Below, piece after piece: positions 7,077-64,000 of a DNA stretch of 64,000 nucleotides. The notes under the pieces are model-generated. The model saw nothing but the letters and a program-made list of their open reading frames with translations, was not told the origin of the DNA and did not search any database. The stretch comes from Craspedostauros australis (Eukaryota > Bacillariophyta > Bacillariophyceae > Mastogloiales > Achnanthaceae). The DNA is taken from positions 434,001 to 498,000 of the forward strand of contig JAMXDE010000019.1 of the NCBI GenBank assembly GCA_026770025.1. Reading direction: 5' to 3'. Position numbers and translations under genes: made by a program. The number at the start of each line of letters is the position of its first letter. The first letter of the stretch is position 1.

Positions 7077-10000
7077 TCACATGTACATCTCGACAAACTC
7101 TGGACTGTCGGATTTGTCCAGAGGACAGCTTGCCTTCTTTGGGAGTGCGCCAAACATGCGTTCGAAGTTCATCAACATCCTTTTGATGTAGGAATGTGGA
7201 CTCATCTTCAGAGTGCCATCTGGATCTTGACCAAAGTCAGCTCCCAGATGATATTCGATGGGACCAACGCCTTTCAGCTTGTAGCTGTACTTGGATGCCA
7301 ATGTGTCAAAGAAGGAATGGGGATTCTTCATGACTGCCATCAAGTCGTCCACATAGACACAGATGTACTCCCAGTGGGAGCCAGCACCATGCATCCAGAC
7401 ATCAGGGTCAGAACGACATTGGGTGAAACCCATGTCTCTGAGAGTGTCGGAGAGTGCTTCATGAAAACGAGCTCCAGAGGTTCGCAGGCCATAGAGCGCT
7501 TTGACGATGCACATCATATGGCCGGCATGCTCACCGAACTCTTCACCAGCGATGAAGCAGATCTTCTCCTTGGTGAATGCTTCGAGGTAAGCATTACCAA
7601 TATCACCCACCATGGTGGAGAGTTAATTGAGCTCACCTGCCAGGAGAGCGATGCGGAGAGAGTGAAGGCTGACAACCCCAGCGTAGGACATGTCCTTGCA
7701 CTGGTCTGTCAGATGACCTCCTGCGACACATCGAGCCTTATGCCGTAGGTCATGCTTGATTGCATAGACCCACTGAAGGCGGATCTTCTGGTATCCATCT
7801 GGTGGAGCCTGTTGCTTGCCCAGAGACTCGAACGTCCCATAGTCGAACAGCTGCTGCATTTCCTTTCGTTCAGCATCAGCCCAAAGGGTGTTGCTGTTCT
7901 TCCAGTCAAGCTGCATGGCCTCTTGATGGTTCCTGGGCACTTGCACACCAAAGTGGAAGGTTGGAATGTTGCCGTGTGTCCGAGTCTTGGCGACATCGAC
8001 TTGGCGTTGCATCCTCTCTTGGCGTTGGGAGAGGCGCTGGAGGCGCTTCCATCCTGGTTGCCCGAGAAGACCATGTTTGCGACCATACACAGCACATGTG
8101 GCAGGGTCGTCTTGGATCATTGCCAAAAGAGGCTCAGACAAAGTGGAGCCATCATTCCATTGGACGGTGACGTTGAAACGAGATCCCTTGTAGGACAATG
8201 AGGAGGGTGAGATGGGACCGTCATGACCGATGATGTCATGGAATATCCACTTGTTGCCCTCAAAGTCGGAGTCCTGTTGGCTCTCGATGATGTCGGACAG
8301 TTCGGTGTACGCCATCAACTCATTCGTCTCCCCATCATTGAGAGAGAGCAGGAGCTTGATGCGTTGATGATTGTCCGCGTCATGGTCGTTGATCTTGCGA
8401 ACGACGTCCGCACGAACCTCATGGCCATCCTGAAGATGAATGAACGACTTGCCCACCAATTCATCAGGTGTGAACTTGGGGACAGAGACTGTCGCCTTGC
8501 CCATTGTTCCTGGATCGGTGATGCCTGAATCGAAGAGAATGGCGTCCGAGAGAGAATGGACGATCGGATCAGAGTTAGGAGGGACGGATATGTCATCCGA
8601 CACCTCCCCATCATCCGATGGTTCGCTCACCACATCATCATCCTCCCCAACAATGGGAAAGGGGAAGTCAGCTCTAAGGTTCCTGGCATCTGGATCATCC
8701 GCAGAGCGGATTGCAGATCTTGGCAGGAGTCGCTGGGACTCATCATCCAGAATCCAGAAGGTCAGGTCGTCTCCTTTGTGAGCGCATGGGCCGGCCCAGC
8801 GACTGCGACGCTCCTTGGAGTGGCTGGGGAATCCTGGCTTCTCAACTCGGAAGTACACAGGCTGCCACCAGCGGTAAGCAAGGAACTTGCTCACATCAGG
8901 GCGATGCCCATATGCAGCCTGCAGAGGGGTGATGTCTCCTGCAGTGTGCTGGGCGATATGGTTGAACAACGAAATGACGTACTGGGTGCAGATGAGCCAA
9001 TACTTCGATGGTGTTCCGGTGCGATCCATGATTCCATTCGTAGTTCGCTTGATGTCTTGGATTCGGCGTTCAGCACCATTCTGGTGCTGATGCTCTGGCT
9101 CGCTCTGATGGTCCTTGACAGTATACTGTCGAAGAATCTCCTGGACCTTGGAACCGACTTCGGACCTCGCGTTGTCCGACATGAGAAGGTCAGGCGCGCC
9201 GTGACGTCGGATGAAATCCAACAACGTGCTGGCGACCTGCTTCTCCGAGGACATGGGAAAGCCCGCGGTGAATCTGGATTGGAGAGCGACATAGACTTGA
9301 ATCATGGTGCACCCGCCGTGTCCAGGCACGCCATCGTCATGTGCAGGGGTGTCCAAGAACAGGGTGTCCATGGCCACAACCTCGTGCAAGCGATCGACGT
9401 TGGCTGCTGGAAAGCGGGTCTTGAAGTGCTTCCGCATTGAGAACCTCTCTGCGGTGCGGTACCACTGCGATGTGCAGCGAAGAGTGTCTCGCACACGACG
9501 AGAAAGGATCCACCCGAAGTGTGGACGGAGTGCCTCGTAGTTGATAGGCGAGGGGCGTTGTTGGATGCCGCCTGTCGGGACGATGGAGTCGTCCGCAGAT
9601 GGGTGTTGGTCGACAACGAAGACATCGATGGCATGGCTGCGGTCATCCGATGGAGGTTCTGGATCTTGTGGAGCCACGTCGGTGACATCAAGCTCATGGT
9701 CAAGTGAGGAAGGATCCCATTCATCATCGGCTGTGAAGTTGACGTGAGGGAGCTGATCAAGTTGGGCACGAGTCGGAGGACACATGTCCATGTATGACAA
9801 GCCTTGGCGGATTGACAAAGGAATCACATGACCGCCAGGGGTCACGATGGTCTGTCGGCCACCAGGCAGATCACGGGGACGTTCATTGACATCCATGCCA
9901 AAGGAGGCGAGCTGATTGGCGGAATGAATCGTCTTGTGCTTCCCGTACAGCGCGTATTGATGGAATACAGCGATGATTGGTCCGTTGGTGGTCTGGACAA

Positions 10001-10478
10001 GTCCAGCAACAGAACCAATGTCAAGGTTGCCAATGGCTGAATCTCCGATGCCGTTGACATCAGCAGTGTGTCCGGTCTTGCACAGCACCACGACATCATC
10101 TCCGGCGAGACCACCATTGGCTCCACTGTCAACGAGAGTTCCGTGCAGTTCCTTGGATGCCTTGTGAAATTCGTAGCGAATCACGGCTTGGTTGGCGAGA
10201 CGCCAGGTTTGCCCCTTGTAGGACAGGACAGGCACATCAGACGATCCGGTCATCTTGGCGTTGGCAAGCATGCAGCTGATGGCGTCGCCTGGAGGTGCGC
10301 GTGGCGCAGTGTCATTGGCTGCAGAATCTCCGTTGCCAGCTGCCGACTCAGATCCGGCCTTGAGAGCAGTCTTGTCTGCCTTGTTGACAGAGCGATTGCG
10401 GCCGCCTTTGGCACGGTTGGGTTCCCACTTTCCCTTTGCTTGGAGGAATGCTTGGCATTGGCTCTTGTCCATCTTCAT
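7077..10478 (-). pseudogene. Copia pol: protease, integrase, partial RT
   Basis: The first segment (10478-7623) is 951 codons. It has the aspartic protease motif LVDSGANGG near residue 115. The integrase core has an AMDTLFLDT aspartate, LLMSDNA, and HQHQNGAERR containing the catalytic Glu. An acidic linker follows, then the start of RT (QWVYAIKHDLRHKARCVAGG). TAA at 7625-7623 interrupts the frame. The same frame continues at once with VGDIGNAYLEA, KALYGLRTSG and the catalytic VYVDDL, to a stop at 7077. The spacing across the TAA equals that of intact relatives, so a nonsense substitution is the simplest reading. RNase H is absent. The acceptance of ATG 10478 is arbitrary, because the frame stays open upstream and probably continues from gag through a frameshift. 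Confidence 0.85.
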
Positions 10479-13286: not shown

Positions 13287-13433
13287 ATAACTTTATAAAT
13301 AAGGCCTCCCTGGAGCTTCAATCCCGGATTATGAATCTAAGCATGTTAAAGTGTATGTGCGCCAAGTTTCATCTGAATTGAAGGTCCAAAAACAAAGAAT
13401 CCTGGAGGGACCGCACCGCTATTGACTCACACG
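13287..13433 (-). repeat. 147-bp dispersed repeat, copy 2
   Basis: Gap-free match to 2188-2334, in the same orientation. Unlike copy 1, it overlaps the 3' end of a small minus-strand ORF, supplying that ORF's last codons and stop. Confidence 0.85.
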
Positions 13434-13575
13434 GGTCGTATGTCGATCGCACCTGTTCCTCATTGCCTTTTGCATCGAAGCCTGTGCTCACGGCATCTCC
13501 GAGTCCTCCATTGGTGCGACAAGCTATCAACACGACGACGAGGACGAGGTTGATGCACAGAGAAGGCTTGTCCAT
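13369..13575 (-). CDS. Small ORF with signal-peptide-like start
   Basis: 68 codons. The N-terminus (Met-Asp-Lys, then INLVLVVVLIAC) looks like a secretory leader. The remainder is a short polar tail. Its last codons are made by the 147-bp dispersed repeat, so the natural 3' end has probably been replaced and this may be a truncated gene or a first exon. It starts only 40 bp from the stop of the neighbouring kinase gene on the same strand. No family is recognised. Confidence 0.3.
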   Translation of the reverse strand: MDKPSLCINLVLVVVLIACRTNGGLGDAVSTGFDAKGNEEQVRSTYDPCESIAVRSLQDSLFLDLQFR

Positions 13576-40526: not shown

Positions 40527-43500
40527 CTAATCGGAATCAGAGTCCGAGTCAGAATCGGAGTCGACGGGCCGGGCTGGTTTTCGGCTCGGTGGGGCGGCGG
40601 CTGGCTGTGGGCCTGGCGGCGCACGGTTGCCTGCGTTCTCCAAGGCAGCACGCTCTGACTTGGCCTCGGCTTCGCATTCCAAGGCCCAGATGACGACGTC
40701 CTCCACCAATTGGGCATCTCGCGACTTGTCCTGGACCTGGGCGACGATACGGGCGAGGGTCTTCTGGTAGGCGACACGGGCGTGGGCCTCGGCCATGTAG
40801 AAGGCCTGTCTGTTCTTCAGGTCCTCCTTCATCTTGACGAGCTGCTTCTTGTACGTGTCGACGTTCTTGATCAACCGAGCGTTGGTTGCGTTCAATCCCT
40901 TCGCGTGGTCGTTGAGCTGGTTGAAGGAGGCGCTGGCGGATGCGTTGGCCTCCATCAATCGGGCGTTGTTCTCCTTGAGGCCCTTGTAGTCACGCTTCAT
41001 GCTCTCGCATTGCTGACGCAGCTTCATGTTCTCCTTACGCAAGTACTCGATAATCTTTCCGGATTCGTCGATGAGGGTCTGCTGCTGGGCGGACTTGTTC
41101 ATCTTCTCGGCCTCTGTGCGCAGCTGATCCTCGAGCTTCTCCTTGTAGTCCTCCATCTCTTGCTCGAACTGGAACTTGGCATCCTCGAGCTCGCGCTTGC
41201 GCTCGTCCTCTGCCTCCTTGAGCTTGTCCTCCATCTTGTTGAGCTGGTTCTGGAGGTCCTCCTCCTCGCGCTTCTTCTCCAGGGCGGCGCGGTACTTCGG
41301 GCGCTGGATGAAGCCACGGGCGATGGCCTGGATGCGGATGGCGGCCTTCTTGGACTTCTTTCCCATGCGCTTCATGCGCTTCTTGTTCTTCTTGGCCTGA
41401 TCGACGCGCTTCTTGGCCAAGGCAAGTCGGAAGAGGCACTGGATGGGGATGACGGCGGTTGCGTACTTGGCGTACTTCATGCGCATGATGGCACGCTTGG
41501 CGAGGAATCCACGCACGGTCTTTTGGATGCGGACGGCCCACTTCTCCCAGATCTTTCCACGCTCGGACTCCAGGTACTCCAGAGCACCTGCGCGGAAGTA
41601 GGCGCGGGTCTTACCGATGGCGTACATCTTCTTGACGGTGCCGCTCTTCGTGGTGGTCTCCATGTGCTTCAGCGTCTTCTCGCACAGGTAGGTGACCTCC
41701 TCTGGCAGATCCTTGCCCTTGAGGGTTCCGAGCAACGGACCGAAACGATCCTTGACATCGGCGTGGTCCAGGCGATTCGGGTATGCCGAACGGGAGATGA
41801 TGACGGCAGCGATCACACCGGCGCATCTCAGCTGTTCGATGGTGGTGACGTGCTGCATGACGAGCTTCTTCTTAAGGACGTTTGGCTTGACGCAACGGAT
41901 GTAGCGCGACTTGGTGGTCGACAGTCCCTTCATGAGAGACGAGAGCTGCGTCTTGAACTTGGTCATCACGGTGTCGGCGACCAGGTTGGACTTGGCACGG
42001 CGTGGTGGGCCACGGCCGGACTTGGCGGCTGGGGCTGGCGCCTTGCTCTCCTGGTTGGTGCACTTGTCGTTGTCCAGATGCTTGGCGAGGATCTCGTTCT
42101 TGCATGCCTTGGCGCAGACCTGCAGATCGGTTGGGAGGGTGTCGGTGTTGCGGATGACGAAGTCCTGAGCTGTGTAGATGACGGCACCGGCGTAGTGGTT
42201 GATTCCGAACTCGCTGCGCTTGAATGTGTTCTTGGCGATGAGGCACGGGACGGTCTTGTTGGATTGCAGAGCCTTGCTGACGAAGGCCTCGTCGTTACCC
42301 TTGGGACGGACGCACTCTTCGTTGAGCTGCTTGATGATACCGAACTTACCCTCGATGAGCTCGAGGACGTCGGAGTTGTCATCGTACTGGATGTCGTCGA
42401 GGTTAAGGCCTTCCGCCTTGTACTCCTCCTGCACGGTCTGGAAGATGTCGTGGGTGAACTTGGCCTGCAGCTTCTCGTTACAGTAGTTGATACAGAGCTG
42501 CTCGAATCCGTTGATTGGGAAGGACTCGAAACCGAAGATATCCAGCAGACCGACCACGCCGAACTCGGTGTTGGCGTCGGCGCCTGGGTAGTTGTTCTCT
42601 GCGCAAGTGGCGTCGTTGATGGCACGCACGAGCCAGAGGAAGATCTTGGCGTAGATCTCCTTGGCGAAGGCGTCGGCGGATTCCTTGGAGACGTCGCTCT
42701 TGAGCGGGACCTTGTACTCCTCTCCACGCGTCTTGATGGTGCGCTCCGTGAAGGCCCTCCCCAGGAGGTCCTCCTCGCAACCGATGAGCTCGGCGAGCTC
42801 CTTGAACTCCTTCTTGGATGTCACGACGGATTCCTCATCGTTGCCTGGCTTTGGTGCGAAGGACAAGTTACCGAGCTGCAGCACGGCGGCGATGGCCTGG
42901 AAGAGAGTGATGTACTTGTCATCCTTGATGCCGACGATCTCGAGGGCCTTCTTGGTCTCGGGGAAGTGCTCGCTGTCCTCCTTGCCGTCGATTCTGACCT
43001 CAGGCGACTTGCCGACGTAGGCGAAGGACTCGTTCTTGGTGCCCTTCAATCCCTTCCAGATCTTGACCTTCTCGCTTTCCGGCGCGTTGAGGAGCTGGTA
43101 GAAGATGTGGTAGGTACGCTCGGTCTCGTCGTGGTAGACGACACGGGACTTCTCGAGGAGGTAGACCTCGCACTTGGAACCGGACATGATGGCGCGCGGG
43201 TTGTCGCCGACGTTCTTGGGCTCCTTGCGGTCGAACTGCAGGACGATGTACTTACCGAAACGAGAAGAGTTGTCGTTACGGCGCGTCTTGGCGTTACCGA
43301 AGGCCTCGAGGAGGGGGTTGGAGTCGAGGATACGGTTGACGACCGCATCGGCGTCGATCTCGCTGACGGCGGTTGGATCCTTCTGCACACTGGCGATATG
43401 GTTCATGCAAATCTTGACGGTCTCGGTCTTACCGGCACCGGACTCGCCGGACACCAGGATACTCTGGTTGACGCCTTCGTACGCCAGACCGCGGTAGCAG

Positions 43501-44459
43501 AGGGAGGAGACTTCGTAGATGTGCGGCGGGAGTCCCTGTCGCGGGTCCTGCTCGGACTGCTCCCACACGAGCTTCTGCGCGTAGTAAAGGCGGACCTTTT
43601 CGGTGTACAGGTCGGTGAGCCACTGGTACGGATTGACGGCGATGACGATGTCGGAAACGCGTGTGTATGGCTTGGCGCTGCAGTGACGCTCCTTCAAGTT
43701 GTACAGGATGGCAGCCTGCGTATCGTTTGGATAGTGTTAATAATATATGGATAGCATATGGATAATATGTGGATTATTGTGGAGGTAAAGATGGAGGTGG
43801 TTGTGGTCGGGTCAATATTTGCGTTAGTGTTAGTTAGTTGATGTCACAATATGAGGACAATGATAACATATGGTAATGCGAGGATGATGGCGAAAGTGGC
43901 ACAGTGGACCTGTCGTTGCCATCATGTCATATCATATCATATCATATCATATCACAGATGCAGGTTTCAATGCGAAATGAAGGCATGCACTGCATCACAT
44001 TCGAGCCAACAGACCATGATGAACGAGCAGAGGGGACCTTTGATGAGCCTCCTCCTCCGCTTCATACCAACACCAACGCCCACGCCCGCATGGAAGCATG
44101 CATGCGCAAAGGCATCGAGCAATGAAAGACGCAGACAAGCAGACCATCGAACTCACCTCATGCAAATACGGCAGGTCCACCATATCATCGACCTCCTTGA
44201 GGGAGCCGGACTTGCCGACGTTCTGAAGCGGCAGGGACCTGTTGGGGTAGTCCTTGAGGTTGATCTTGGCGGACTTGAAGCCGGTGGCGCCCTTTCCGCC
44301 ATCGCTGAGGATGAGCTCCTCGCTGTCGTACTGCGGGATGGCGACCTTGGCGACATCGCCGGTCTGCTCAACGAGACGCGCTGGGATCCATGCGTAGTCG
44401 TTGCTGCGGATGTACACGTTGTTGGCCGTGGCGCCGCCGCCGTCCTTTTCCTTTGGCAT
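40527..44459 (-). CDS. Myosin heavy chain with IQ motifs and coiled coil
   Basis: Two exons: 44459-44157 (101 codons) with donor GTGAGT, and 43715-40527 after acceptor ACGCAG. The intron is 441 bp, phase 0, and the product is about 1163 residues. The junction rebuilds DLPYLHE-AAILYNL, the normal start of a myosin motor. The N-terminal SH3-like subdomain has YAWIPARLV. The motor has P-loop GESGAGKT (about 191-198), switch I NDNSSRFGK (about 248), switch II DIFGFESF (about 496) and the actin-facing TTKSRYIRCVKPN. Three IQ-like repeats (RIQKTVRGF, IQCLFRLALAKK, RIQAIARGF) follow for light chains or calmodulin. A coiled coil of about 150 residues then suggests dimerisation. A Pro-rich tail ends in an acidic Ser-Asp repeat, a likely CK2 target. 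It moves cargo on actin. I do not assign a myosin class; no tail domain such as FYVE, WW or MyTH4 was seen. Confidence 0.95.
43926..43955. repeat. CATAT pentanucleotide repeat in myosin intron
   Basis: About six ATATC units inside the single intron of the myosin gene. It is a candidate length-variable marker. Confidence 0.9.
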
Positions 44460-57594: not shown

Positions 57595-58442
57595 CGCGAT
57601 CACGTGTAGTCGATGCGTTGACTCTTGTCACTTTCTCACAACGTCATGCATGTATGTATTATATGTATTCGTTTGTACAATGCAATAGCTGTTGACTGCA
57701 TAGACGTTGATCGGATTGGATTGGATTGGATTGATCACAGAATACCTACTCCACAAGTGTTGTCGAGCAGAGTCCAGTGCAGTGCAGTGGAATGTGTGGA
57801 CAATTGCAATTGTGTCGGCGCCAACCACACGAGAACCATCTCCAACCAACACACAGAGCCAACAACAACACGGATACCAAACTCCGTCGCGTTTGCGTGA
57901 CCCCGAATGACCAGCAAAAAAGAAAAACCATCACTCATTTCTCCGTCTTCCACTTGGCAATTGACCATTGGTGGAATGATGCAACCAGACAGAGCGGCCG
58001 ATTCGATTCACGCATCATGTCACTTCTGCGTCACATGAGACAAAGTCAGCAACCGCCAATTCCGATCAACGTTTTCAATAAGAGCCCGATCAGTGAGTCG
58101 ACCAACTGTTTGCAATCAAGAGTCTAATCAAATTTCTGGGATTTTGAAACTAATTGCATATAAATAATCCTCGTAGTCTATTTACATATGATGGACCCTT
58201 TCAGCTTGTACTTTGTTTCATTTTAATTTTTATGGAGTGATCTATGTATACATTGCAGTCGCGTTGATCCTACAGCAGAAAAATCGTTAGTTTCTGCCGA
58301 AGGTTCGATAGTGTTCTCATGTATTTATCGTGAGGTGACCAGTCACGGACTTGCTTCGGAAGGTGCCGGTGGTTTGGTACGCGTTAATTACACGTTAGCA
58401 TGTGGCGCATGATTCCACATTCTGCTCGTCACAAAACAGATG

Positions 58443-58590: not shown

Positions 58591-58676
<86 letters not shown>
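58591..58676. repeat. AGT trinucleotide repeat, about 28 units
   Basis: A nearly perfect AGT run. If translation began at ATG 58546 it would encode polyserine. It more likely lies in the 5' leader, because a better start (ATG 58810) follows. Confidence 0.95.
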
Positions 58677-58809
58677 GAGTTGTTGTTGTTGTTGTCAACG
58701 AATGGTCCACCCATCATCGCATGCTCTCCTTTCGTCACTTCGTCCTCCACCTGTGCAGTTCATCACATCCATCTTGCAAGCAACACTACTCTACAGCAAC
58801 AACTGCATC

Positions 58810-61800
58810 ATGCCTTTCTCTACCACCGCCAAGGCCCTCTCCAAGGATGGCAACCCCTCCCCCAGTAAGAAACCTCGCGCTCACCCTGTGTCTGCTCCTC
58901 CTGTCGATTCGAAGGGTGACTTGCTACCTACTGCTGAACAACTGTTGCCTGACAAGCCATCCGCTGCGTTGAGGAAGCCGAGCACCATCACGCGAGTGAT
59001 CGATGTGAAGCCGATGCATGCAGCGGATGGCAACCTTGTCCCGAACGGCACGCATGCACACGCTCGTGAGCTGCACGTGTTCGTACACATCCTCGACAAC
59101 AACGGAGGCGTCTACGACGACTCCCATGTCAGGGTGCGTTCGGAGGGACGAGGTGTCGGCGATGGTACGTTGGTGAGCGTTATCGTGAACGCGCCAACCC
59201 CCGTTGAGCCTCTTGTTGCGTCTGATGTTGCACCACCGGTCAAGCCGACCCCACCAGGGAGGCTTCTCTGGCGCTGCAACACGGTAGCTGCTGGGGGGTA
59301 CGCAGATCCCTCAAATGAGAGCGACAGCACGTATGTTGACGAAAAGGAGGAACAGACACGCGCCGGCAGGGGCGGGAGGGGCGGGAAGTTTGGGCATGAT
59401 CCGGAGGAGGAGAGCTGGAGGCGCGATGCTATCGTTCGTGTGATGGCGGAGCTTGGATCTAACCTAGATCCAAAACTGTTGCGGTCAATGCCGAAAAAAG
59501 GGTTCGTCCTCACAGGCAGACACAATCGAACCATCTGGAGTAACATCAAACAGATGTGGAGTGTCGTATCGTGTGCGCTTTGGACTGTCCTGCTTCCAGA
59601 AGAAGAGGTGCCAACTCGTCAGATGGGACAGGTGGTTGCATACGTGCGCGGTCAGGTTGAGCTTCCTCCGACAATGTTGGCATCTAACCTGTACACCCTC
59701 TGCTTGCTCGGAGAAACTACATCATCCTGCACGGTGAGAGCTGCTTTGGCCATGTCTGCGCCTCATACACTGTGTACTGCTATCTTGGACAAGCACGCAC
59801 ATGGATTATCGGAGGAACAGAAGGCGCGCATGCTTCCCAAACGCGACATCATCACGCACAGCCAGGCCTGTACTTTGCGGGGTTACTACGACATCTTGAG
59901 CAACGGCAAAGTCATCCCATCCCGAGTTCTCCAGTATCGCGTGCGTGCCTGTGATCTCTCTGGTGTGGTGTCCTTCCTCATGACCACTACTACATACAAG
60001 GCGGGGCTGAGTCACACGGTACAGTATGGGGGGGTTGAATTCGAAAATGTCCCGGTGTTCGATCGAGGTGGCACGACCATCCGAGAATTATTTGGCATGT
60101 ACTCGTCCACTACAAACAGCCCAGTGGGAAGGCCCGCGTTTACCACCATTACTAACCTCCTCACACGCAAAAGCAAGATCAAGACAGGGCTTTCTTCCTT
60201 TGAGAGTTACTTCTGGATGGCAACCGAAAAACTGAAACATGCAATTTTGCGCCTTCTAGACCTACTGAAGGCTAAGTATGAAGCGAGCGGAGCGGAGAAA
60301 AACGATGCAGCTGTGGATGCCAATGACGGGATCCGCCACGACAACGATGACCCCCATGACGTCATCTCACCACATTTGCGCACAGCAGAGTCTCTGTTGC
60401 ACGAACTCGAACTGCTTGTTGTGTTCGTCAAATGGGAATTCACCGCGTCACACATGCAGCTCGAGTGTGATGACCCCATGCATTCCGCCGCGTTCGCTCT
60501 CACCACCGAAAAGGAGAAGAAGAAGGGAACAACCAACCAACGCAAACCACGCACCAACAAGCACAAATGCAAGAAGAACACTGCTGTAACAAAGGACAGT
60601 CCAACCATCACAATTGACATTTCTTCCGCCGCCGCAAACCAACAACCACGCAAAGTATGCAACCATTGTGGAGCTGCAATGCGATTTGTGGATGATCATT
60701 TTGTCCCATTCGTCAAAATGCTTAAGGACAACGAACTCGCGGAACACAAGGACGAATTGCAATCAATGCTTGCGGCGGCCCCGGGATTCGCCAATGAAAT
60801 TGTTAACTACATGGCTCACAAAGTGCGTGCCAAAGTGCAATTCAGACAAATCGCCTTTTATCAATCCGAACTCAATGATAAGCCTGAAAGAGCCTATGTG
60901 GTACTCGACCATAAGCAAAAAATTCTACCAACAGGCCAAGGCGAAGCCCAGCAAGAATATTGGGGGAAAAAGGGGATGTCACTGCTTGGGGCAATGGTCA
61001 TCACTTGTCGCAATGACATTTTTACTTATCGGTTCATCGACATTGTGGTCGATGAAAGACCAACACAAGACACACTTCAAGTTGGTGGACTGCTGGAGAT
61101 TGTGCAAAAAAAGGTCAAAGACATTCTCCCATCCGTGACTGAAATCATCTTACAGAGCGATAACGCGTGTTGTTTTGCCAGTCACGAGCACATTGCGCTC
61201 ATCACGTCCAAACTCAACAAGAACCTCAGGCAACGAAACGCGGCCAAAATCATCGCGTGGATCTACACAGAGGCCCAAACTGGTAAGAGCATGCTGGACA
61301 CCCACTTCGCGTACATCACACGTGTACTGCGAAAATACGTGCAAAGCGGACGTGACATCAAGACCCCGCTCCAACTCTTCCACGCACTGGTAGCCGGTGA
61401 CATCGCGGGAACAACAACAGTACTTGCCAACGCGGCGCTCCTGGCAGGCAACATCACGACGTTGCCAGGTGCACCAAAACGACGATTCCGCGCATCTGGA
61501 CAACAGGTACGTATGACTCACGAGGTGAAGTACGACGATGACCAGGCGCGGTTGGTGGCTGCATCTGGCATCACCGAAGACGTCGTGGTGAAGAGCACCG
61601 AATGGGAGGGCTGGAGTATCAACGAGTTGGGTGTTGTCGAGGACGATTCGCACATGTCCGAGAAGCTGCCGATCACGTCCGAATCATTCAGGAAGACGGA
61701 CAAGACGCGAAAACTCGGGCGCACAGCGGCAGAGAGCAAGGCGCTGGTGTTCGGCAAGGCCATCCAAGACGGACAACAACACCTGCCATCCGATCACACC

Positions 61801-62331
61801 ACGGCACTACAAGACCAGACCGCGGAAACAGAACACCCACCACTCGCAGTGCCAGGCTGGGCAAGCAAAACTGCGCGCAAACCAGCGGAACTACCAGACT
61901 ACGTTGTGGCAAAATTGAAGGACATCTGTGAAGCGTCCGCGAAGGACCCGAAAAACAGACCGTCCGAACACGAAGCACACGAGAAACTGATGAAGAACGA
62001 AAAAACGAAAACTGACTGGTACGTACAACTGCACGCAAACCCCATGCGCGTAAAAGCGTCGCTGTTTGCAGCGTACAGTGCCAAACAACACAAACAAAAG
62101 AAGGAGGCTGCCCTCATCAAGACAGCAACCAACACAACAAACAAAGCAACAGCAACATCCAGAATCATGGCGACCAACAATGAATCAGCTGGAACAGAGG
62201 AGGAACAGAGGGAAGAGGAGTTGCAAAGAGAGGAAGAGCAACTGGACCATCAGATGTGGTGTGATGCTCACACCATGAAGGCCAACGCAGAAAGTGAGGC
62301 TGTGTTGGGTGATGAGACCGAAACTCCGTGA
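58810..62331 (+). CDS. DDE transposase-like protein of an unplaced family
   Basis: 1173 residues from ATG 58810; the in-frame ATG 58546 would add a polyserine leader and is not preferred. The N-terminal half has a Gly/Arg-rich patch (AGRGGRGGK) and a helical domain of unknown type. A basic linker and a CNHCG knuckle lie at about residue 617. The RNase H-like core has VVLDHKQKI (Asp about 700), LQSDNACC (Asp about 784) and YTEAQTGKSMLD (Glu about 821), giving D-84-D-37-E spacing. KQKILP, then EYWGKKGMSLLG, then DNA-C-C, then EAQTGK-x-x-x-D-x-H-F-A match a layout I recall from uncharacterised proteins of animals and protists with transposase ancestry. The C-terminus is charged and Glu-rich. The frame is fully intact, so it is either recently active or domesticated. 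The stop lies 13 bp before the TIR of copy B. Confidence 0.7.
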   Translation: MPFSTTAKALSKDGNPSPSKKPRAHPVSAPPVDSKGDLLPTAEQLLPDKPSAALRKPSTITRVIDVKPMHAADGNLVPNGTHAHARELHVFVHILDNNGGVYDDSHVRVRSEGRGVGDGTLVSVIVNAPTPVEPLVASDVAPPVKPTPPGRLLWRCNTVAAGGYADPSNESDSTYVDEKEEQTRAGRGGRGGKFGHDPEEESWRRDAIVRVMAELGSNLDPKLLRSMPKKGFVLTGRHNRTIWSNIKQMWSVVSCALWTVLLPEEEVPTRQMGQVVAYVRGQVELPPTMLASNLYTLCLLGETTSSCTVRAALAMSAPHTLCTAILDKHAHGLSEEQKARMLPKRDIITHSQACTLRGYYDILSNGKVIPSRVLQYRVRACDLSGVVSFLMTTTTYKAGLSHTVQYGGVEFENVPVFDRGGTTIRELFGMYSSTTNSPVGRPAFTTITNLLTRKSKIKTGLSSFESYFWMATEKLKHAILRLLDLLKAKYEASGAEKNDAAVDANDGIRHDNDDPHDVISPHLRTAESLLHELELLVVFVKWEFTASHMQLECDDPMHSAAFALTTEKEKKKGTTNQRKPRTNKHKCKKNTAVTKDSPTITIDISSAAANQQPRKVCNHCGAAMRFVDDHFVPFVKMLKDNELAEHKDELQSMLAAAPGFANEIVNYMAHKVRAKVQFRQIAFYQSELNDKPERAYVVLDHKQKILPTGQGEAQQEYWGKKGMSLLGAMVITCRNDIFTYRFIDIVVDERPTQDTLQVGGLLEIVQKKVKDILPSVTEIILQSDNACCFASHEHIALITSKLNKNLRQRNAAKIIAWIYTEAQTGKSMLDTHFAYITRVLRKYVQSGRDIKTPLQLFHALVAGDIAGTTTVLANAALLAGNITTLPGAPKRRFRASGQQVRMTHEVKYDDDQARLVAASGITEDVVVKSTEWEGWSINELGVVEDDSHMSEKLPITSESFRKTDKTRKLGRTAAESKALVFGKAIQDGQQHLPSDHTTALQDQTAETEHPPLAVPGWASKTARKPAELPDYVVAKLKDICEASAKDPKNRPSEHEAHEKLMKNEKTKTDWYVQLHANPMRVKASLFAAYSAKQHKQKKEAALIKTATNTTNKATATSRIMATNNESAGTEEEQREEELQREEEQLDHQMWCDAHTMKANAESEAVLGDETETP

Positions 62332-62335
62332 TGGG

Positions 62336-62344
62336 AGTGCATCA
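62336..62344 (+). repeat. 9-bp direct repeat next to TIR of copy B
   Basis: AGTGCATCA, identical and co-oriented with 1898-1906. It abuts the left TIR of copy B and sits four bases after the DDE gene's stop codon. Confidence 0.5.
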
Positions 62345-63857
62345 CCGCGATAACACTAGTTGTGGAGTTTTGTGGGCGACAGATCATGCTACTATAACGA
62401 GTCTAGAGGTCACCCCAAAACCATCCAAACATCTGCTTACCATGCTATATCTCAACAACACATCACTTACAATTGAAGCTAAACATTGCGTTCAGACGCC
62501 TGACTATCTGTTAATCAGAATATTGAAGTTTAATTGATATTGAAGCTGCTTTTATTTTCATGTTGATCCACCACACAATTGTGTGGTGGATTCAAAAAAT
62601 TCTCGATCAAGCAATGTTGCCCTCCTCTCAGCACCCATGATCATCATCATCATCCTTGTATTTTGGAAAACTGAACAACACAATGACTTGGTATACTCCC
62701 CATCTATCCACTCCATGACGCTTGGCCACAGATACCCACCTGACATGGCCCAAAGTGTCGCTGCACTGAAAAAGAGCGTTGTCAAAAAATCGATTGCAAT
62801 CCGGATGCGGTATGGATACGGATCCATACCTCATCCATACAATCCATGCATCCCCTCCACGTGGTCCTCGTGCATTCTCATACTCCCTGGCGACACGCTG
62901 ATGCATCCAGAATGGGCTGGGCATGTGTGCTTCCAAAGATACAGCTCCATTTGGTGATGCCATTGTTTTTCGCACCCACCCACCATCAATGACCGTTCGT
63001 CAGATATGGTGGGGTGCCGCCTCTTGTGGGCCGTCTCCGCGGCGCAAACTTCGCGAGGTGAATCTTGAATTAATGCCGCACGCATCTTGTATGGGTGGCT
63101 TGGCGATTGTGTGAGTTGGCAATGGTGCCCTGCACAGCCAAAGCCACATGATGGAAACCCCACGACACACCGCGAAAACTCTTGCCCTCCACTTTTTCCT
63201 CCGCGCGGAGGACTTCCCGGTCCTCCCCGAGCCTGAAACTTCGTGGGCATCTTGGTCTTGGCCTCCTGGAGCCATCCTGCCAATCTATAGGCGATGGGGT
63301 GGGCTGTGGATGGAGTACGCTGGCCATATGCAATGAGCCAATCTGGCGCGAAATTGTGACGTTTGATCTGGGGCCTGCGACGGCCCCAAATCAAGCGCTC
63401 TCACGGCACCCTCTCATCCACCCACCAAGGGTTGCATCGCGGTGACGGCGATGTGCTTGGATTCTGTGGTGGATCACTGGTTGGTGCGGCGCAGTGATTG
63501 CCGTTGGACCGCCATTGTGGCTTTTTTTTGGTGTTCTGCCATTGTCATGTTGTTGTTTTTAGGGGTTTGCCGCCCTCGACCAAGCGTACTTGCTGGGGGC
63601 CGAGGTAATTATCAAATATTGTACTAAATGTACAAAAAGAGCATGGCACTAAGCACTTCGGTAGTACCAATGGAGCTGGACCATTCCGCCGTGATGAACT
63701 GCAGACAATGATGCCTCCTATCGTGCTGTGATTGGTGTTTCATGACGCAGTATCCATCTTCGTGTCGTAGATGACGGATTAAGCAACCGGAGGATATAAT
63801 AGATGTAAACATGCACTCGCCGCTTCTCCCAAAACTCTACAACTAGCGCTATCGTGG
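62345..63857 (+). mobile_element. TIR element copy B, about 1.5 kb
   Basis: The left terminus CGCGATAACACTAGTTGTGG and a right terminus at about 63828-63857 form an imperfect inverted repeat of about 30 bp; the right one, reversed, reads CACGATAGCGCTAGTTGTAG. The interior matches copy A (630-1897, reversed) as far as about 63610. No transposase frame lies inside, so it is non-autonomous. Clear duplication of a target site on both of its own sides was not seen (AGTGCATCA left, ACAGGGTGT right). The right terminus is less certain than the left. Confidence 0.65.
62567..62592. repeat. 26-bp perfect palindrome inside copy B
   Basis: Two 13-bp arms (ATCCACCACACAA and its reverse complement) meet without a spacer. 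Copy A has GGTGGTGGGTGC at the matching place but no palindrome, so the palindrome arose in copy B or was lost from copy A. It can form a cruciform or hairpin. Confidence 0.9.
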
Positions 63858-64000
63858 ACAGGGTGTTGGATGCTCTGATCGGAACTGCTGGGAGGCGCGG
63901 TAATCTCCATCATTAGTGCATCAGAAAAGTACTTTTTCATACAAAAACGGTGTTCTCCACCTCATTTCATGTGTTTTTACGCGCGAATTCCGATGCTTTA
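63858..64000. other. Right-edge sequence
   Basis: 143 bp outside the presumed right terminus of copy B. No gene or repeat was recognised. Confidence 0.4.

Follow-up and report, generated by a model that had tools for sequence, protein, structure and literature searches.

A recently active family of 6-kb DNA transposons with NTAN target-site duplications in the diatom Craspedostauros australis

A long open reading frame in the stretch of Craspedostauros australis DNA analysed here (64,000 nucleotides, hereafter the window) belongs to a well-delimited and recently active family of DNA transposons. In these elements, which span about 6.03-6.15 kb and end in terminal inverted repeats (TIRs), the transposase gene is the sole gene detected, and we consider it very probable that they are autonomous and are moved by their own DDE/D transposase. 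A preliminary description, made from the letters of the window, had read the frame as a transposase, and this reading is strongly supported by the TIRs, 4-bp NTAN target-site duplications (TSDs), copy number, an exact empty site and purifying selection. Whether the family also amounts to a new superfamily is a possibility that we weigh below.

Element structure and target sites

We derived the element boundaries from 20 loci taken with their flanks, and found a length of 6025-6145 bp in the 13 copies measured, with TIRs that pair over 120-174 bp at 78-86% identity (5 of the 13 measured copies). The left end reads 5'-GAGCC(C/T)GATCAG(T/C)GAGTCGACC and the right end is its inverse, with GGCTC last; in one locus (L014) the left end has decayed. 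In the window copy (Table 1), homology breaks at 63885. It picks up again at about 70019 and extends to about 70314, outside the window; there an ATAA follows the right TIR and matches the one at 58078-58081. The window copy is complete, with a younger insertion splitting it downstream of the gene; a truncated copy was rejected, since the missing end was found beyond the nested insertion. In the nested insertion itself (63886 to about 70018; L029:1887-8019), we found no long terminal repeats and several frames longer than 250 aa, one of which looks Harbinger-like.

Table 1. Features of the window copy (positions in the window; residue numbers refer to the transposase)
Feature	Position	Strand	Remark
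Left target site duplication, ATAA	58078..58081	.	Right ATAA beyond the window, after ~70314
Left TIR, first bases GAGCCCGATCAGTGAGTCGACC	58082..58180	+	At least 99 bp
(AGT)30 microsatellite, 5' leader	58591..58680	+	Length and composition vary among other copies
Transposase gene	58810..62331	+	1173 codons plus stop
Putative zinc-binding C553, H558, C617, C620	60466..60669	+	Invariant in 9 copies
D700, candidate first catalytic acid	60907-60909	+	Invariant in 9 aligned copies
D784, candidate second catalytic acid	61159-61161	+	Invariant in 9 aligned copies
E821, third catalytic acid of the preliminary description	61270-61272	+	Invariant in 9 aligned copies
D830, alternative candidate third catalytic acid	61297-61299	+	Invariant in 9 aligned copies; topology argument
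3' part of element without codon signal	62332..63885	.	Holds internal inverted repeat 62345-62372 / 63830-63857
Nested 6133-bp insertion, start	63886..64000	.	Cuts the window copy off from its last 296 bp

Nineteen of the 20 aligned loci, including the window copy, carry the stretch spanned by the internal inverted repeat as part of the element; in L015 the match stops short of it. A separate 1.5-kb element, suggested by that inverted repeat, was rejected. So was a second gene in this 3' part of about 1.9 kb, given that we detected no codon periodicity there and saw no frame common to the subfamilies (in the periodicity test, the coding control was significant in three of four windows, the first being the exception). 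Elsewhere in the window, a relic of the 3' part lies at 652-1895 on the minus strand; it is about 70% identical, begins near the gene end, and has neither the gene nor complete ends.

The 4-bp flanks matched in 32 of the 34 copies examined, always as NTAN. These comprised all 14 copies with both ends found among the 20 loci, and 18 of another 20 TIR pairs spaced by about 6 kb; the two exceptions are flanked by CTAT/CAAT and CTAG/TTAT. Across the 32 TSDs, the second base was T and the third was A in every case, while the first (A 11, T 10, C 7, G 4) and the fourth (T 18, A 7, G 6, C 1) varied. On contig 12, one member, carrying the variant end GAGCCCCTCGAG, sits inside another and has TTAG on either side. 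When its flanks were joined and one TTAG removed, the resulting 161 bases aligned without gaps over 156-161 bases to 17 other members, and the reconstructed empty site was identical at 161 of 161 bases in five copies (L016, L017, L020, L023 and L024). The contig 12 insertion is exact, and four base pairs were duplicated rather than two. Among the flanks retrieved we found no empty sites in host DNA; the left flank of L018 (129 bases) is single-copy.

Copies in the host genome and selection on the gene

The preliminary description had proposed counting the genomic copies and looking for common TIRs, and both searches of the host genome (74.8 Mb in 90 contigs) were productive. With the whole protein we obtained at least 40 matches (39 of 533 candidates scored); those listed include at least seven other places at 95-99% identity over most of the protein and two further pieces at 93% and 97%, the remainder being at 83-86%. 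The core (residues 691-847) gave at least 150 matches at 90-100% identity (150 of 372 candidates scored); of these 150, 116 fall in open frames of 1100 aa or longer, and a single one has an internal stop. Both counts are lower bounds, and more diverged members would lie outside the best-scored matches. The family comprises more than a hundred copies, mostly intact. The 22-base TIR end, with up to three mismatches, occurs at 97 + 89 sites in the genome, and a second TIR variant, GAGCCCCYCGAGYGAGTCGACC, with up to two mismatches, at 91 + 87 sites; together this makes up to 364 ends, a few sites possibly being counted twice, and reversed-pattern controls for both searches gave 0 sites in the genome.

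At least two TIR variants coexist, with cores GATCAG and CYCGAG, and the facing pairs that were read carry the same core at both ends. A link between TIR variant and protein type was considered and set aside, as no simple one appeared in a small sample: the proteins of L031 and L036 share a diverged block (201-400), yet the TIR variants of their elements differ. No facing TIR pair shorter than 5.9 kb was found in the first 100 places listed per TIR search, read by eye, and these places gave no sign of miniature derivatives; derivatives with the same ends elsewhere, or with other ends, are possible. Several pairs of the same TIR lie 11-15 kb apart. Very long cargo-carrying forms were rejected as an explanation, because the two pairs opened (C33 and C8) each consist of a 6-kb element into which another sequence has inserted, with direct repeats of 795 bp (99.5% identical) and 175 bp (100%), respectively, at the ends of the insertion; both insertions are probably LTR retrotransposons.

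Translation of 58810-62331 on the plus strand confirmed the intact frame of 1173 codons plus stop that had been described for the window copy. Upstream of 58810 the same frame stays open to 58444, across the microsatellite, and in copies about 85% identical the frame starts at or near the equivalent of 58810. Between copies of the host genome (28 pairs among eight copies), we estimated dN/dS at 0.16-0.30 over the whole frame and at 0.11-0.30 in residues 600-930, a range that indicates purifying selection. The frame is not due to chance, given the 150 scored core matches, the large share of them in long open frames and this dN/dS range. We also found 11 differences over 6058 aligned positions, plus 87 gap columns, between two full-length copies, L017 and L020. 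Together, the dN/dS values and this near-identical pair show that the genes are under constraint and that some copies are recent; near-identical full-length copies occupy different sites, in support of the recent activity suspected earlier.

Divergence is unevenly distributed along the protein. In residues 200-600 (window 59407-60609), dS was 0.79-0.96 between two groups of copies (L031 and L036 vs the window copy, L009, L017, L019, L021 and L022), and the same between-group pairs gave 0.23-0.55 in the other three blocks; amino-acid identity in residues 201-350 fell to 38-64%. These patterns suggest that the proteins may be mosaics produced by module exchange between subfamilies, the swapped module perhaps being a DNA-binding one.

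Other features of the genome and the window were recorded alongside. Silicon transporters (PF03842) gave 88 matches in the host genome, 32 of them above 750 bits and 28 of these 32 without internal stop; this is far above the few such genes known per diatom, and the family is possibly greatly expanded in this genome. Light-harvesting proteins (PF00504) gave 61 matches, and the two results together fit a host that is a diatom or another silicifying ochrophyte. The window also contains a myosin head gene (40530-43697, minus strand, 1056 aa), antisense to which runs a 1014-codon open frame with no Pfam match (40710-43751, plus strand), and a 150-bp repeat present at 2188-2337 and 13287-13436 with 94% identity between the two places. 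A long frame at 7626-10478 (minus strand) has weak, below-cut-off matches to rve and RVT_2 (E 0.006 and 0.008) and is probably a copia-like retrotransposon relic.

Proposed mechanism and candidate catalytic residues

TIRs together with a TSD of fixed length indicate DDE/D transposition. In the mechanism that we propose, a single protein would bind the long TIRs with their 5'-GAGCC...GGCTC-3' ends and excise the element through a candidate RNase H-like DDE/D active site, whose fold and third acid are predictions. The transposase would then join the element to its target by attacks 4 bp apart, staggered around TA, and this staggered joining would leave the NTAN duplications. Judging from the transposon class, movement is likely cut-and-paste rather than replicative; no excision footprints and no expression were seen.

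The three motifs quoted in the preliminary description are at residues 697, 781 and 819, so the acids it proposed are D700, D784 and E821. All three are located as quoted and, like D830, fall in the most conserved region of the protein; the choice of E821 is less secure, D830 being at least as good a candidate for the third acid. The RNase H order consists of a strand ending in D, two strands, a helix, a strand ending in D, a helix, a strand, and a helix with the third acid, and in retroviral integrases the last acid sits at the opening of a helix. Set against this order, E821 closes the fifth strand and D830 opens the next helix. In our judgement D830 is therefore somewhat likelier than E821 to be the third catalytic acid, from its position at the opening of a helix, as for the last acid of retroviral integrases. 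A Chou-Fasman estimate places strands in agreement with the RNase H order but calls the last helix as a strand; the RNase H fold of the core is a prediction from sequence. Further upstream, a low-complexity stretch separates the C553/H558 pair of the putative zinc site from the C617/C620 pair.

Relatives, alternatives and placement

We found nothing above noise for the transposase in Pfam, NCBIfam, PHROGs or PDB sequences, the few Pfam lines falling far under the curated cut-offs. Records of phages and plasmids likewise yielded no relative, nor did contigs of viral and prokaryotic origin; the contig scans relied on exact matches to short peptide patterns and are blind to remote kin. Distant relatives proposed from motifs (one viral and 21 prokaryotic contig matches; best tblastn E 0.60) were judged to be chance by frame and context. 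A profile of the protein, A1, was empty in a three-genome pilot and gave two short matches, at E 0.005 and 0.008 per genome, in sets of 398 and 395 prokaryote genomes, which we took as chance; since only close copies went into A1, the profile searches are insensitive to remote kin. The libraries searched held neither Repbase transposases nor other eukaryote genomes. In the literature, we found no title or abstract describing an NTAN / GAG...CTC transposon family. The available part of one report mentions, for Phaeodactylum, two types of element with an uncharacterised transposase, of which one is weakly piggyBac-like (PMC2806351), and either type could be related to the NTAN family.

With the fold of the transposase predicted, one might suppose that a nuclease not of the DDE/D kind moves the element, but a constant 4-bp duplication next to TIRs is what DDE/D transposition usually leaves, and the most conserved part of the protein holds three or four invariant acids; we regard a nuclease of another kind as very unlikely. 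Even less can be said for a single domesticated host gene of transposase origin, an option raised in the preliminary description. An intact frame under purifying selection would suit it; the window copy, however, is one of more than a hundred, is flanked by its own TIRs and matching TSDs, and is accompanied by at least seven others that are 95-99% identical to it and by many more in the 83-86% range, so that we give domestication next to no weight.

Within DDE/D transposons, the closest call concerns Sola. Accessible parts of the literature describe Sola elements as having a DDD transposase, a 4-bp TSD, a size of mostly 2-9 kb, TIRs of 11-1124 bp and very variable termini (PMC10741241), with AT-rich TSDs such as ATAT in Sola2 (PMC3627910), and place Sola-1 and Sola-2 in a brown alga (PMC12477816). 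The TSD length, element size and TIR length found here all agree with that description; D700 and D784 are invariant in nine copies with either D830 or E821, and D830 as third acid would give a DDD enzyme. However, the Sola2 TSDs quoted there also include AAAT and ATTT (PMC3627910), which have no central TA, as opposed to all 32 matching TSDs of our family. A divergent member of Sola, in which case the lineage would not be new at the superfamily level, is a serious reading that falls a little short of an even chance; such a member would move by the mechanism proposed above. By comparison, an offshoot of the IS630-Tc1-mariner radiation, with its usual TA target widened to a 4-bp duplication, seems unlikely to us. 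The TA invariant in the 32 matching TSDs speaks for such an origin, as does the DNA motif after the second D, which we take to recall the mariner group. On the other hand, there is no Pfam match, and Tc1/mariner duplications are given as 2-bp TA in the part of PMC10741241 at hand; in our family the duplication takes in the outer bases as well. With Sola compared by description only, we put forward a new superfamily of eukaryotic DDE/D transposons as possible rather than probable. Its hallmarks would be one protein of about 1170 aa, unlike any family profiled in the libraries searched, long TIRs with GAG...CTC ends and a 4-bp target that is strictly NTAN; its elements would spread as intact autonomous copies, the TIR pairs listed giving no hint of miniature derivatives.

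As a young, abundant family with intact enzyme genes, defined ends and target, and an empty site, these transposons make direct activity tests feasible, and they may in future offer an insertion tool for a silicifying alga. Should the family not belong to Sola, the 23 superfamilies counted for Repbase (PMC10045372, seen in part) would gain an addition, and there would be a profile for proteins now left uncharacterised by genome annotation.

By TSD length, termini and the lack of a Pfam match, the element does not fit hAT, Mutator, piggyBac, Harbinger or Tc1/mariner, as the preliminary description had held. The target of piggyBac is TTAA, and the element here shares with piggyBac / IS1380 a 4-bp duplication with a TA core. 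It differs in having GAGCC...GGCTC ends, where an excerpt of PMC10045372 gives 5'-CC..GG-3', and in its free outer TSD bases and lack of a Pfam match. Ginger1 and Ginger2 resemble it in their 4-bp (to 6-bp) TSD and long TIRs, but their TG...CA termini (PMC10741241, in part) do not occur in our element, which also has no rve Pfam match. With Tc1/mariner it has in common the TA in every matching target, and differs in its 4-bp rather than 2-bp duplication and in the lack of a profile match. The TSD lengths that the same partial source gives for hAT (8 bp), Mutator (7-12 bp), PIF/Harbinger (3 bp) and CACTA (3 bp) differ from the 4 bp found here, again with no Pfam match; between residues 782 and 845 the protein has no C/DxxH motif like that of the Dada-hAT-Kolobok-MuDR-P group. 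On TSD length and termini as defined in the available parts of PMC10741241 and PMC10045372, hAT, Mutator, Harbinger, CACTA, Tc1/mariner, piggyBac and Ginger are thus excluded. Sola1, Sola2 and Sola3, as partially described in these sources, share with our element the 4-bp TSD, TIRs, a large single transposase, element size and a possible DDD triad; compared by description and not by sequence, they differ from it in the central TA, which is present in 32 of 32 TSDs here and not in the Sola2 TSDs quoted.
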